Source: Yinghuangia soli (GTDB lineage Bacteria; Actinomycetota; Actinomycetes; Streptomycetales; Streptomycetaceae). From it: 38,589 bases of DNA. The position numbers were made by a program, and so were the translations under genes. The notes beneath the pieces were generated by a model. It made no database searches. It worked only from the letters and a program-made list of their open reading frames with translations, and was not told the origin of the DNA. The stretch covers positions 394,138 to 432,726 of the forward strand of contig NZ_JAKFHA010000004.1 in NCBI RefSeq assembly GCF_021502675.1, written 5' to 3'. Shown piece after piece: positions 2,224-32,776 of this stretch (position 1 is its first letter; each line of letters begins with the position of its first letter).

Positions 2224-3030
2224 GTGGCACCCCTGCGCCACCGCGAGCCGCTCCCGGGCACCGGCTGGCTTGCGGACGAACCCGCGGGCGCAGCGCCGGG
2301 CGACCGGCTCAGCCGCCGCTCCAGCGTCCTCTTCTCGCTGTACGCCCTCGGCCGGATCAGCGACTACCTGATCGAATGCGGCTCGCCCTGGCACGCCGGC
2401 TCCGCCCCGCACACCCGGCCCGACGTCCGCGAACTCGCCCTCCACACCGACTTCTTCGGCGCCCGCCTCGGCCTGGACGCGGTCGACGCCGGGCCGGACT
2501 TCTCGCCGTTCCACCACGAGATCGCCGCGGTCGTCCCGGACGAGGACGCCGAGGCCGTCGTCCTCGACGAAATCCTCTGGCCCGGATTCCGCTTCGGAGA
2601 CCTCCTCTTCTGCCGGGCCGGCGTGCGGGTCCGCGCCCCGGCCCGGCTCCTGGACGCGCGCATCGCGACCACCTCGACCCTGCACTTCACCCACCGGCGC
2701 GGCGGCCGCGCCTGCGACGACCCGGGGCACGGCTGGGGCTCGAACTCGCAGTGGCGTACCGAGTTCGCCCGCTTCTACGACGACGCGGAGGGCCTGCACC
2801 TCAACTGGGACGGCGAGTACTACCTGGACGACGCGGCGGCCTCCGCAGCGCACGTCGACGAGTACACCCTGCCGCTCGACCGCCGCCGCGAACTCCTGGT
2901 GACCCGCTGCCACATGTCCGAGCCGCCGCCGGGCCTCGAAGGCTATCCGTACGCCGACCGCCTCAGCCTGCGCCGGAGCACCTGGCCGCTGGACCCGGCC
3001 GACATCCTCCCCGATCCCGGACTGCGCTGA
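2224..3030 (+). CDS. Conserved-looking hypothetical protein
   Basis: 268 residues from a GTG at 2224; no good Shine-Dalgarno. The frame is open back to a stop at 2164 and could start at a CTG at 2182; a CATACT box at 2178-2183 would put the transcription start near 2190. Codon use is strongly GC3 throughout, so the gene is real. I do not recognise the family. Visible features: an aromatic-rich acidic middle (FFGARLGLDAVDAGPDFSPF, LWPGFRFGDLLFC), a GHGWGSNSQWRTEF motif with three aromatic/amide residues, and FYDDAEGLHLNWDGEYYLDD. No signal peptide or membrane segment. It is transcribed away from the NUDIX gene and ends at a strong hairpin, so it is probably monocistronic. Confidence 0.6.
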   Translation: MAPLRHREPLPGTGWLADEPAGAAPGDRLSRRSSVLFSLYALGRISDYLIECGSPWHAGSAPHTRPDVRELALHTDFFGARLGLDAVDAGPDFSPFHHEIAAVVPDEDAEAVVLDEILWPGFRFGDLLFCRAGVRVRAPARLLDARIATTSTLHFTHRRGGRACDDPGHGWGSNSQWRTEFARFYDDAEGLHLNWDGEYYLDDAAASAAHVDEYTLPLDRRRELLVTRCHMSEPPPGLEGYPYADRLSLRRSTWPLDPADILPDPGLR

Positions 3031-3043
3031 CCGGCGCTGGCCT

Positions 3044-3094
3044 GCGCTGACCGGCGGCGCCCGTGCCGGTCAGCGCCGGTCAGCGCCGGTCAGT
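3044..3094. terminator. Hairpin terminator built from tandem 10-bp repeats
   Basis: GCGCTGACCGGC (3044-3055) pairs perfectly with GCCGGTCAGCGC (3065-3076), 12 bp with a 9-nt loop. The right arm is the first of three tandem GCCGGTCAGC units (3065-3094), and a second left arm overlaps the stop codon of the preceding gene (3025-3035), so several alternative hairpins are possible. Confidence 0.6.
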
Positions 3095-3181
3095 GCGCGG
3101 TGCGGGCGCGGTCAGCGCACCCGGACAACCTCAAGACCGACACCGCGGCCCGGAGCCGCGCAAGGACTCGAGGAGCGCCCC

Positions 3182-4420
3182 ATGACCACGACCACCGCCA
3201 CGACCACCGCCACTTCCGCGGCCACCGCAGCCGCGCCCGGCCGCAACCGCCGCGTCCTCATCTCCGGCGCCGGCATCGGCGGCCCCGCCCTCGCGTACTG
3301 GCTGGACCGGTACGGCTTCACCGTCACCATCGTCGAGGCGAGCCCGCAACTGCGCCCGGGCGGCCAGGCGATCGACGTCCGCGGCCCGGCCCTCGACGTC
3401 GCCGCCCGGATGGGCGTCCTGGACCGGATCCGCGACCGCCGCGTCCGGATGCGCGGCATGAGCATGGTCGACGGCGACGGCAAGGAGCTCTTCAGCACCA
3501 CCGAACGCACCATCACCGGCGGCGAGATCGACAGCCCCGACGTCGAGATCCTCCGCGACGACCTCTGCACGATCCTGGCGGAGGCGGCCGGACCCGGCAT
3601 CGAGTACCTGTTCGGCGACTCCCTCACATCCGTGGAGCAGGACGAGACCGGCGTGCGCGTCGGCTTCCGCCACCACCCGGCCCGGACCTTCGACCTCGTC
3701 GTCGGCGCCGACGGACTGCACTCCAATACCCGCAAGCTGGTCTTCGGCCCCGAAGCCGACTACCTCGCCTACATGGGCACCTACCTGTCCGTCTGGACCA
3801 TGCCGAACTACCTCGGCCTCGACCGGTGGCAGCTGTTCCACCAGGCCCCCGGCGGCACGTGGGGCGGCGGCGTCATGAGCGTGCGCGGCAACACCGAATG
3901 CCGGGTCTACATGGGCTTCGAGTCGGCCGACCTGCTCGCCTGCGACCACCGCGACACCGACGCGCTCAAGCGCGTGCTCGCCGACCGGCTCGGCGGCCAG
4001 GGCTGGGAACTCCCGCGCATGCTCGGGCACATGTGGGACGCCCCGGACTTCCATCTCGACGCCATGGCCCAGATCCGCATGGACAGCTGGTCGTCCGGCC
4101 GCGTCGTCCTCCTCGGCGATGCCGCGTATTGCGCGTCCCCGCTGTCCGGCCAGGGCACGACACTGGCCATCGCGGCCGCCTACGTCCTGGCCGGGGAGCT
4201 CAAGGCCGCCGACGGCGACCACATCGCGGCCTTCGCCGCGTACGAGGAGGAGATGCGCGAATACGTACGCCTGAACCAGGAACTGGCGTACACCAACAAG
4301 GCACGTGTTGAGGCCCAGGCGGCCGCCGAACTCGGCGAGGACACCGACCTGGACACCGCGGTACCGGACTTCCAGGAAGCCGGGGAGATCATCGCCTCGC
4401 TGGTCCTCAAGGACTACTGA
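3182..4420 (+). CDS. FAD-dependent class A monooxygenase (PHBH fold, TetX-like)
   Basis: 412 residues; ATG 3182 has GAGGAG 7 nt upstream. After a Thr/Ala-rich N-terminal tail (1-20) comes VLISGAGIGGPALAYWL (dinucleotide-binding GxGxxG), then VVGADGLHSNTR (DG motif, FAD/NADPH) and RVVLLGDAAYCASPLSGQGT (GD motif contacting the FAD ribityl chain). These three in order define group A flavoprotein monooxygenases, single-component NAD(P)H-dependent aromatic or drug hydroxylases. NGxxGR-type cofactors or a second reductase are not seen nearby, consistent with the single-component type. The gene is monocistronic between a hairpin and a convergent operon 26 nt away. Substrate unknown; antibiotic or aromatic hydroxylation are the usual options. 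Confidence 0.85.
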   Translation: MTTTTATTTATSAATAAAPGRNRRVLISGAGIGGPALAYWLDRYGFTVTIVEASPQLRPGGQAIDVRGPALDVAARMGVLDRIRDRRVRMRGMSMVDGDGKELFSTTERTITGGEIDSPDVEILRDDLCTILAEAAGPGIEYLFGDSLTSVEQDETGVRVGFRHHPARTFDLVVGADGLHSNTRKLVFGPEADYLAYMGTYLSVWTMPNYLGLDRWQLFHQAPGGTWGGGVMSVRGNTECRVYMGFESADLLACDHRDTDALKRVLADRLGGQGWELPRMLGHMWDAPDFHLDAMAQIRMDSWSSGRVVLLGDAAYCASPLSGQGTTLAIAAAYVLAGELKAADGDHIAAFAAYEEEMREYVRLNQELAYTNKARVEAQAAAELGEDTDLDTAVPDFQEAGEIIASLVLKDY

Positions 4421-29766: not shown

Positions 29767-30333
29767 TCAGGTGCGCAGCGGGGCGATGTCGTCCGCGGTG
29801 AGCTTGCGGTCCGCGATGCCGGCGAAGCCGTTGCGGTCGGTGTAGCTCTCCTCGCCGATGATGCGGCCTTCGTCGTCGATGGTCCAGATGATCGCCATGC
29901 GCGACTCGTACAGGTAGTACGTGCCGGCCGCCGGGTCGTCGACCTCCATGCCCATCGCGGCCAGCACCGCGCCCGGGTAGGCGATGCGGATCGTGCCGTC
30001 GGTCAGGACCAGGTGCGTGTCGACGGCCAGCCGGTCGATGTCGTGCACGAGCTGGGTCGCGCCGCTCGCCACGAAGTCGCCGTAGTACGCCCGGATCGCC
30101 TCGGTGCCGCGGGGGTGCAGCCGCGGGTTGTCGGGCGCGCCGAGGCGGTACACCGGTTCCGGGCACAGCGTGGCCATCAGCGCTTCCAGGTCACCGTGCG
30201 CCTCGGCCTTCTGGTGCGCGATGACCACCTCGAGATTGCGGCGCAGCACCGGGTCGCGCTCGTCGGCGAGCCGCTTCTCCAGCGGCACCCAGGTGCGGTT
30301 CGGGTCGATGAGCGGCATGGCGGTGGTGGTCAT
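29767..30333 (-). CDS. SnoaL/NTF2-like protein
   Basis: 188 residues; ATG 30333 with GGAGG 4 nt upstream. After an N-terminal helix pair (NRTWVPLEKRLADERDPVLR), HQKAEAHGDLEALMATLCPE and YRLGAPDNPRLHPRGTEAIR, AYYGDFV, then a cone-shaped beta-sheet (YESRMAIIWTIDDEGRIIGE) give the NTF2-like/SnoaL fold. These catalyse cyclisations or isomerisations on polyketides or steroids, or only bind ligands; ketosteroid isomerase-like Asp residues cannot be assigned. Probable operon with the SDR downstream. 81 nt from the divergent TetR-DUF4096 start. Confidence 0.8.
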   Translation of the reverse strand: MTTTAMPLIDPNRTWVPLEKRLADERDPVLRRNLEVVIAHQKAEAHGDLEALMATLCPEPVYRLGAPDNPRLHPRGTEAIRAYYGDFVASGATQLVHDIDRLAVDTHLVLTDGTIRIAYPGAVLAAMGMEVDDPAAGTYYLYESRMAIIWTIDDEGRIIGEESYTDRNGFAGIADRKLTADDIAPLRT

Positions 30334-30395
30334 GGGTCCTCCGAAAGGCGCGGCGGCGAACATTGCCGCACCGGGGCATTCATGTATATGGCGTA

Positions 30396-30408
30396 AACGT
30401 TCTAGCAT
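30396..30408. promoter_or_regulatory. Leaderless promoter box and small palindrome before the TetR-DUF4096 gene
   Basis: A perfect AACGTT (30396-30401) lies next to a TAGCAT -10-like box (30403-30408) that ends 6 nt before GTG 30415, so the regulator mRNA may be leaderless. Palindrome symmetry extends only 6 bp, so operator identity is tentative. Confidence 0.35.
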
Positions 30409-30414
30409 TGGCCC

Positions 30415-31479
30415 GTGACCCGGTCAATGAATTCCGCCCGTCCCCGTTCCGCAACCGGTACCGATGCCCGGGCAGCCGGCCGCACCGCCGCGCCGCGGAC
30501 CCGGCTGACCTTGCGCGACGTGGTCCTCGCGGCCCGCGGCGTGCTGGCTGACGGCGGTGTGGACGCGCTGACCATGAGTGCCGTCGCGGCCCGGCTCGGG
30601 GTGACCCCGATGGCGCTGTACCGGCACGTCGACGACCGCGCCGCACTGCTCGCCGCGGTCGCCGACTCGGTCCTGGAGGAGGTCGGGGCCGGCCTCGACC
30701 CCGGCATCCCGTGGGACGACGCGGTCGTCATGTGGATGCGCGACGTGCGGCACCGCATCGTGCAGAGCCCCTGGACCGCGCAGCTCATCGGGACCGCCAC
30801 GCAGATCGCGCCGGCCTGGGCGGCCGCGCTCGACCGGCTGCTCGCCGCCCTCGAACGCGGCCCGCTCGACGACGCCGCGCGCGCCGACGTGCTGGTCTGG
30901 GTCGCCCGCACCACGGTCGGCGTCGTGCTCCTGGAGGCGAAGTCGCCGCTGGCCCGGCCCGGGCAGGCGGTCGGGGCCGCCCTGGACACTGCGCTGGAAG
31001 GCGCCTCGCCCGAGATGGCCGAGCGCTGGGCGCGCATCGACGCCCGGCTGGCGCAATACCGCGACGACGACCTCTTCGAGGACCTCGTCCGCCAGACCCG
31101 GGCCCGCCTGGCCGCCGCAGCCGGCGCCGAACCTGTTGCCACCGAATGTTTTGAAAAACACCCTCAGCACCCCGATGCCCAGGACATGACCGACCGCCAA
31201 TGGCTCCGCGTCCGGGCCGTGCTCCCGGCCGCCGACCAGCGCGGCGCCCCGGCCGCCGACGACCGCCGCATCGTCGACGGCATCCGCCACCGCGAACGCA
31301 CCGACACCGCATGGCGCAACGTCCCGGCCCGGTACGGCAGCTGGCAGACCCTCTACAACCGGCACCGCCGCTGGACCCGGGACGGCACCTGGGACCGGGT
31401 GACCGCCGCACTCGGGGCCGAAGACCACCCCGCCGGCCGCGGGACCGAAAGTCACCCCGTCGAGCCCGGGGCCAAGTGA
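30415..31479 (+). CDS. TetR regulator fused to a DUF4096-like (IS5-type transposase N-terminal) domain
   Basis: 354 residues from GTG 30415 (ATG 30427 alternative). Residues about 28-80: TLRDVVLAARGVLADGG, then LTMSAVAARLGVTPMALYRH, a TetR HTH; helical ligand domain to about 235. A linker encoded by AT-richer DNA (31128-31185) leads to residues 258-335: MTDRQWLRVRAVLPAADQRG, RIVDGIRHRERTDTAWRNVP, SWQTLYNRHRRWTRDGTW, the N-terminal winged-helix domain of IS5/IS4-type transposases. No DDE catalytic domain follows; the reading frame ends where the trp leader promoter begins. An internal ATG (31186) has no good ribosome site. Two DNA-binding domains in one chain is the notable feature. Regulates, presumably, the divergent SnoaL-SDR genes. 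Confidence 0.85.
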   Translation: MTRSMNSARPRSATGTDARAAGRTAAPRTRLTLRDVVLAARGVLADGGVDALTMSAVAARLGVTPMALYRHVDDRAALLAAVADSVLEEVGAGLDPGIPWDDAVVMWMRDVRHRIVQSPWTAQLIGTATQIAPAWAAALDRLLAALERGPLDDAARADVLVWVARTTVGVVLLEAKSPLARPGQAVGAALDTALEGASPEMAERWARIDARLAQYRDDDLFEDLVRQTRARLAAAAGAEPVATECFEKHPQHPDAQDMTDRQWLRVRAVLPAADQRGAPAADDRRIVDGIRHRERTDTAWRNVPARYGSWQTLYNRHRRWTRDGTWDRVTAALGAEDHPAGRGTESHPVEPGAK

Positions 31480-31588
31480 TAACGTCGAAGCATGAGTTCT
31501 ACGGCGCATCTGTCCTGGTGGCGCTCCTCTTAGGAGCGGCCGCCGAATCAGACCACGCCTCGGGCCGTTCGTACGGACGGCCCTTCTT
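31480..31588 (+). promoter_or_regulatory. Ribosome-mediated tryptophan attenuator upstream of trpS
   Basis: TAACGT (31480-31485) ends 6 nt before ATG of a leader peptide with tandem Trp codons. A CGCTCC-N5-GGAGCG hairpin (31522-31538) covers the leader stop. GGGCCGT (31562-31568) and ACGGCCC (31577-31583) form a terminator followed by TTCTTC. CGGCC (31537-31541) can alternatively pair with GGCCG (31563-31567), which would disrupt the terminator. This is the layout reported for the S. coelicolor auxiliary TrpRS gene, controlled by ribosome-mediated attenuation. Confidence 0.8.
31492..31533 (+). CDS. trp leader peptide MSSTAHLSWWRSS
   Basis: 13 codons with TGG TGG at 31516-31521 and TAG stop at 31531-31533, just before the attenuator hairpin. 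Stalling at the Trp pair when charged tRNA-Trp is scarce would favour the antiterminator. No Shine-Dalgarno; probably translated from a leaderless mRNA. Confidence 0.8.
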   Translation: MSSTAHLSWWRSS

Positions 31589-31675
31589 CATGTGCACCCG
31601 CTCCCACCGGAGCGCGCCGGCCGCCCGTCGCGACGCCCGCGGCAGACACCCCCGCACTGCACTGGAGAAGGAACC

Positions 31676-32776
31676 ATGACCGCGACGCTCACCGGCACCG
31701 CCGCTGCACCCACCCCCGCCCCGGGCACCGCCGCCACCCCCGCGCCCGCCACCGCCGCCGCACCCGTACCGCCCGGCGCGCTGCCCGAAGACCCCACCCG
31801 GCACCGCGTCCTCACCGGAGACCGGCCCACCGGCCCGCTCCACCTCGGCCACTACTTCGGCACCCTGCGGAACCGGGTACGCCTGCAGGACGCGGGCGTC
31901 GACACGTACCTCGTCATCGCCGATTACCAGGTCCTGACCGACCGCGACGTCGCCGACAACCTGTCCGGCCACGTCGAGAACCTGCTGCTCGACTACCTGG
32001 CCGCGGGCATCGACCCGGCCCGCACCACCGTCTTCGCACACAGCGCGGTCCCGGCCCTCAACCAGCTGCTCCTGCCGTTCCTCAGCCTCATCTCGATCGC
32101 CGAACTCCAGCGCAACCCGACCGTCAAAGACGAGATCGCGCACTCCCGCCAGGCATCCGTCAGCGGCCTGATGTTCACCTATCCGGCCCACCAGGCGGCC
32201 GACATCCTCTTCTGCAAAGCCGACCTGGTGCCCGTCGGCCAGGACCAACTCCCGCACCTGGAAGCGACCCGCACCATCGCCCGGCGCTTCAACGAGCGCT
32301 ACGGGCCGGTCTTCCCCGAACCCCAGGCGCTGCTCTCCGAAGCACCCCTGCTCCTCGGCACGGACGCGGGCAAGATGAGCAAGTCCCGCGGCAACTCCAT
32401 CGCCCTGGGCGCCACCGCCGACGAGACCGCACGGCTGCTGCGCCGCGCCACCACCGACGCCGACCGGACCATCACCTACGACCCGGACAACCGCCCCGGC
32501 GTCTCCGGCCTCCTGCTGCTGGCCTCGCTCTGCCTGGGCCGCACCCCGGAGGACCTCGCCGCCGAGATCGGCGACGGCGGCGCGGCCCGCCTCAAGCAGC
32601 TCGTCACCGAAGCCGTCAACGACCACTTCGCATCCCTGCGCGCCCGGCGCGCCGAGCTCGCCCGGGACCGTGCGTACCTCGCCGAAGTCCTCCGGGCCGG
32701 CAACGCCCGGGCCGCCGCCGTCGCCGACGCGACACTCGACGAAGTACGGCACGCCATGGGGATGCGGTACGCCTGA
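31676..32776 (+). CDS. trpS: Tryptophanyl-tRNA synthetase, auxiliary type
   Basis: 366 residues; ATG 31676 with AAGGA upstream. After a 40-residue Ala/Pro/Thr-rich extension: RVLTGDRPTGPLHLGHYFGT (HIGH motif variant HLGH), YLVIADYQVLTD, KADLVPVGQDQLPHLEATR, TDAGKMSKSRGNSIAL (KMSKS). Class I TrpRS activating tryptophan and charging tRNA-Trp. In bacillus-type TrpRS the motif corresponding to ADYQ reads VDQHA, so a His is replaced; changes at that His are linked to indolmycin resistance. With the attenuator this resembles the indolmycin-resistant TrpRS1 of S. coelicolor. Resistance itself is inference. Confidence 0.93.
   Translation: MTATLTGTAAAPTPAPGTAATPAPATAAAPVPPGALPEDPTRHRVLTGDRPTGPLHLGHYFGTLRNRVRLQDAGVDTYLVIADYQVLTDRDVADNLSGHVENLLLDYLAAGIDPARTTVFAHSAVPALNQLLLPFLSLISIAELQRNPTVKDEIAHSRQASVSGLMFTYPAHQAADILFCKADLVPVGQDQLPHLEATRTIARRFNERYGPVFPEPQALLSEAPLLLGTDAGKMSKSRGNSIALGATADETARLLRRATTDADRTITYDPDNRPGVSGLLLLASLCLGRTPEDLAAEIGDGGAARLKQLVTEAVNDHFASLRARRAELARDRAYLAEVLRAGNARAAAVADATLDEVRHAMGMRYA

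Follow-up and report, generated by a model that had tools for sequence, protein, structure and literature searches.

The N-terminal domain of a transposase is, in the established view, the part that binds the ends of the element. In eukaryotes, a transposase DNA-binding domain has been joined to a host domain by splicing, giving host-transposase fusion genes. Fusion genes between host and transposase sequences in eukaryotes are treated in the accessible text of two papers (PMC12062965, PMC8700633). No earlier report of a TetR-, HxlR- or other bacterial regulator-transposase fusion surfaced in the accessible text of the literature searched. The gene described here lies in a window of 38,589 nucleotides (the whole stretch of DNA that was analysed) from Yinghuangia soli. 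It follows the same domain-joining principle as the eukaryotic genes, but it is bacterial and would have been made by read-through into an insertion sequence (IS). With the TetR family (PF00440; e.g., TetR(D), ActR) its product shares the helix-turn-helix (HTH) and, in a low-confidence prediction, a helical body, and TetR proteins are its best solved relatives by sequence and fold; it differs from its six nearest homologues in carrying DUF4096. With the IS5-family transposase orfA (DUF4096, PF13340; NCBIfam transpos_IS5_3) it has the full DUF4096 domain in common, but it has no DDE part and no orfA start codon of its own, and its domain reaches no more than 51-56% identity with any of the compared copies. 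An HxlR-DUF4096 fusion likewise has a DUF4096 derived from IS5 attached through a short linker to the C-terminal side of a regulator, but belongs to another regulator family and is found in three genomes.

A TetR regulator and DUF4096 in one frame

The fusion gene runs on the plus strand from GTG 30415 to TGA 31479 (30415..31479), encodes 354 amino acids and has no internal stop; translation could alternatively start from ATG 30427. The TetR_N HTH (residues 39-82; 30529..30660) was recognised by Pfam at E 3e-9, with 37 bits against a curated cut-off of 24, and was confident in the structure model. It lies within a TetR body of residues 31-236 (30505..31122), supported by third-position GC (GC3), the ends of six homologues and Foldseek; TetR_C_1 stayed below its Pfam cut-off (E 0.023). 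A junction predicted to be disordered (codons 239-256; 31129..31182) leads into a transposase-derived stretch (codons 257-342; 31183..31440), in which DUF4096 occupied residues 258-329 and profile positions 1-75 of 76 (E 8.5e-22; 77.6 bits against a cut-off of 34.3). The IS5 model transpos_IS5_3 of NCBIfam matched residues 256-336 with a score of 76, below the cut-off of 110 for a whole transposase, and no DDE family was among the Pfam results for the 354-aa protein. Transposase similarity ended at about residue 342 and the frame closed 12 codons further on, this tail and its stop (31441..31479) being without such similarity. The reading frame and Pfam agreed on what the initial annotation had read from the letters, a TetR HTH and a complete DUF4096 in a single frame with no DDE part. 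The protein is a TetR regulator joined to a full-length DUF4096, the domain found at the N-terminus of IS5-type transposases, and the catalytic part is absent. An assembly or sequencing error that joined two genes is very improbable: the gene is known from a single assembly with no second strain, but the locus lies inside a 477 kb contig and both sides show a strong codon-position signal in the same frame.

Overall, the full-length structure model, built with six sequences, was of poor quality (mean pLDDT 57.6). Better values were reached in the HTH (blocks 75-89) and over most of DUF4096 (blocks 64-92), and the linker was below 50. TetR structures ranked first when this low-confidence helical model was used in Foldseek. 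DUF4096 was predicted with five helices and zero strands in the full-length model, and a stand-alone single-sequence model of the domain was also all-helical, but weak. The winged-helix fold that had been proposed for the domain was not supported, because both models were all-helical without strands, the second being poor. For the DUF4096 domain, no sequence match to a solved structure was found at E 5, and no fold match at E below 5.0 with the poor model as query.

Addition of the tail and a possible IS left end

A search of 391 genomes of the order with the TetR part as query (E 1e-16) gave seven matches, one of them from this genome. The other six, the nearest homologues (33-41% identical over the matched stretch), were all without DUF4096; five had their ends no more than about 10 residues away from residues 236-243, and the sixth had a low-complexity tail about 20 residues longer. 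Since DUF4096 is absent from these homologues, whose ends fall near residues 236-243, it is an addition to TetR. Homologues stopping near residue 235 had been named in the initial annotation as evidence against the fusion; the six answer to the letter of that description, but the fusion is not thereby false, and only the addition of DUF4096 follows.

The GC content was 60% in two 60-base intervals covering 31120-31209 and 68-83% in intervals within 30430-31119, confirming the earlier impression that the junction is richer in A/T than its surroundings. GC3 was 0.96 in residues 31-238, 0.44 in codons 239-256 and 0.94 in residues 257-342. A value as low as that of the junction was seen in none of 2498 overlapping 18-codon intervals from eight nearby frames, a control set that excludes the first 30 codons of the fusion gene (GC3 0.73). 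The low GC3 fits translated, once non-coding DNA at the left end of an element. Transposase similarity started at D257, directly after the position of the IS elements' own start codon. The codon at this position is CCC in the fusion gene, and since no start codon remains there, the transposase domain is now probably read only within TetR. The next ATG (31186) coincides with the start of the Pfam domain, as expected if a stand-alone DUF4096 protein started here and TetR ended otherwise. Two such separate products are highly unlikely, however, as there is no intervening stop, the AGGA 1 base from this ATG is too close for a ribosome site, and no promoter was found nearby.

In reference IS elements, the left end lay mostly 36-77 bases ahead of the domain start, and a CTAG target was present at a fitting distance in 31 of the 53 places read for left ends. 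The second left-end score table held 26 ends, reached from 31 by removing one duplicate and four in which no end could be recognised; one was re-registered by hand. A candidate remnant of the left terminal repeat, CGAATGTTTTGAAAAA (31143..31158, plus strand), 40 bases ahead of codon 257, had the best plus-strand end-like score at a fitting distance and ranked 11th of 77146 positions, with 4 of 918 equal-sized blocks doing as well. It is suggestive only, being equalled also by 147 of 5000 local shuffles (221 of 5000 in the other shuffle figure). A minus-strand site at 31162, part of the same near-palindrome, ranked first and points the opposite way. No CTAG target was found and no right end was found by eye, the only other check on the latter being the whole-window score. 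Judged from these scores, an IS left end near 31143 is plausible. By eye, 31129 (GAACCTGTTGC) seemed a suitable left end, but it was dropped because it ranked poorly in both score tables (first table, 24217 of 77142; second table, 17893 of 77146).

Pfam, the transposase alignment, GC3 and the homologue ends supported the suggestion of the initial annotation that an IS5-type element lying at the 3' end of tetR contributed its left part as the tail. The best explanation, with a probability of roughly 0.6, is that such an insertion gave TetR a second, IS-derived DNA-contacting arm; here we infer the IS insertion as an event, DNA binding by DUF4096, the target gene and a changed regulation. The element, with its left end about 36-77 bases ahead of the orfA domain, would have inserted where tetR ends, later losing everything to the right of about orfA codon 90. 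The tetR stop codon would have been lost, and the element's non-coding left end would have become an 18-codon flexible linker. The operator that TetR normally recognises, probably close to the divergent gene at 29767-30333, would still be bound by the dimer. Further DNA contacts, weak or sequence-specific, may come from the linked pair of DUF4096 domains, resulting in higher occupancy or a second site. One site that DUF4096 might touch is, speculatively, the end-like sequence in its own gene. The weak terminal-repeat match with its higher-scoring minus-strand partner, and the lack of a CTAG and of a right end, count against this explanation.

State of the domain and search for other fusions

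The DUF4096 of the fusion was at most 51% identical to any of 39 distinct transposase copies in the alignment (56% locally, to the same copy), whereas each of the 39 had a relative at 61% identity or more; this contrast is partly due to sampling, because the set came from similarity searches and includes close copies. The domain departed at 7 of 28 conserved columns, compared with 0-6 for the 39 copies when left out singly. Three of the seven departures were mild (L to M, V to L, D to N), and no stop or frameshift was present. Best identities to DUF4096 were also in the fifties in the plasmid collection, where none of 1494 matching records covered 80% of the query. The nearest transposase copy in the same genome was 43% identical over part of DUF4096; with no close copy there are no obvious sites for the domain to bind, which counts against the proposed second arm. 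Judged by its divergence, the domain is probably an old fragment freed from transposase constraint, and decay and reuse both fit.

The seven changed positions also suit a passive relic of read-through, in which an IS fragment removed the tetR stop, the idle tail is tolerated and TetR works as before. We regard this as possible but clearly the less probable reading. It is favoured further by the disordered linker and by the singleton status of the fusion, but 85 codons without stop or frameshift, a GC3 of 0.94 and a full-length Pfam match of 77.6 bits speak against it, as does the comparable HxlR regulator fusion retained under constraint elsewhere. The open frame is weak evidence of use because high GC makes stop codons rare.

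No second match over both domains was found in 394 genomes of the family (E 1e-12) or in 394 genomes of the class (E 1e-22); the draws of 394, 391 and 394 genomes overlap, five candidates per genome were scored in both 394-genome searches, and fusions to quite different TetR proteins would escape them. A second TetR-DUF4096 fusion was likewise not found in the plasmid collection, and each of the 17 loci returned by a pattern search of genome contigs had one of the two parts only. A search with P0005 in 335 class genomes (E 1e-60) gave no match and is uninformative without a positive. Comparison within the genus covered two other genomes: in G002, trpS and its leader were present with 77% DNA identity from base 31504, but without an adjacent TetR-DUF4096 gene, and in the stretch of G001 that was read, only the NUDIX neighbour was present. 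Recurrence of the fusion at the same locus in other genomes, raised as a check in the initial annotation, was thus looked for and not found. The three genomes of the genus gave 34 DUF4096 matches, and among the 28 loci read out of 30 covered (L133 and L134 were not located), the DUF4096 of the fusion gene was the only one joined to a recognised host domain. Elsewhere, 17 upstream frames of at least 50 codons preceded DUF4096, and a Pfam family was found only in the HxlR one. A further candidate, G020:C147 (reported span residues 156-338, two stops), was rejected as a plain DUF4096 orfA without TetR. TetR-DUF4096 looks like a rare one-off fusion, and the lack of any relative with both domains counts against the preferred reading of a second DNA-contacting arm. 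In Pseudonocardia dioxanivorans CB1190, a DUF4096 transposase was observed in at least 11 IS copies that are nearly identical to one another (L002-L011, L013).

HxlR-DUF4096 fusions and neighbouring genes

Of 20 stretches selected because long open frames surrounded DUF4096, one had an HxlR regulator in front of the domain. This fusion of G005 (L066:2667-3425) recurred with 92% identity in G030 (L074) and, at 73% identity and 92% coverage, in Embleya sp. NBC_00888 (L122:3001-3726); the three genomes are Embleya or Embleya-like, the genus of G030 being inferred. HxlR and DUF4096 were both over their Pfam cut-offs in the two proteins tested (G005, NBC_00888). In the genus of G005, the fusion was present in two of four genomes, and the nearest HxlR (78%) of a third genome, G061, ended without DUF4096. 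In the three pairs, dN/dS (NG86) was 0.09 for HxlR and 0.27, 0.39 and 0.42 for DUF4096; for the closest pair, YN00 gave 0.13 for DUF4096. Purifying selection that keeps a fusion in several species was taken as the mark of domestication; it was found for HxlR-DUF4096 and not for TetR-DUF4096. The HxlR-DUF4096 precedent favours the second-arm explanation, but its linker and tail were weakly constrained (dN/dS 0.26-1.03 and 0.58-0.60), which counts against it. Its DUF4096 parts were only 36-44% identical to that of the TetR fusion, so an independent capture is the simplest reading. Its retention in three genomes indicates that regulators with such a tail can persist, and says nothing on whether TetR uses its own. 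Nine HxlR places had matches past the HxlR domain, most through stops, and no DUF4096 followed them (best E 0.095). A shortened DUF4096 with a tail (VLRALIGRLGEVAHRPTP) like that of the HxlR fusion and no HxlR ahead was observed in L068 (G020, about 2900-3300); it may be what is left of a related element or fusion.

If the tail of TetR-DUF4096 binds DNA, insertion sequences would offer bacteria a direct route to chimeric transcription factors, parallel to the eukaryotic host-transposase fusions; HxlR-DUF4096, which is conserved, adds another case, one where selection on the acquired domain is already measurable. It is rather doubtful, though conceivable, that IS5-type elements landing at the 3' ends of transcription regulator genes in Streptomycetaceae repeatedly supply these regulators, through read-through, with a second DNA-binding domain, with TetR and the Embleya HxlR as independent catches whose tails retarget or strengthen binding.

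The likeliest target of the TetR regulator, judged by position, is probably the divergent gene P0003 (29767..30333, minus strand), which had no Pfam family at E 0.001. No convincing operator palindrome was found in 30310-30480; the region held just three 9-base pairs, all of them weak and separated by 37-84 bases. Downstream, a trp-type leader peptide read from the sequence, MSSTAHLSWWRSS (31492..31533, plus strand), precedes trpS, its region being conserved in G002, and a terminator-like hairpin (31562..31583, plus strand) lies between the two. The fusion frame had been said to end on the promoter box of the trpS leader; the leader peptide does follow directly, but TGATAAC at the stop codon is at most a putative promoter box, and a sigma-70 promoter scan of 30200-31750 found none. 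Auxiliary tryptophanyl-tRNA synthetases (TrpRS) under ribosome-mediated attenuation are known in Streptomyces. With its Trp-Trp leader peptide and hairpin ahead of the gene (region 31492-32776), trpS looks like such an auxiliary TrpRS, and a second TrpRS, 34% identical, is encoded in the same genome (G000:C6:46712-47716).
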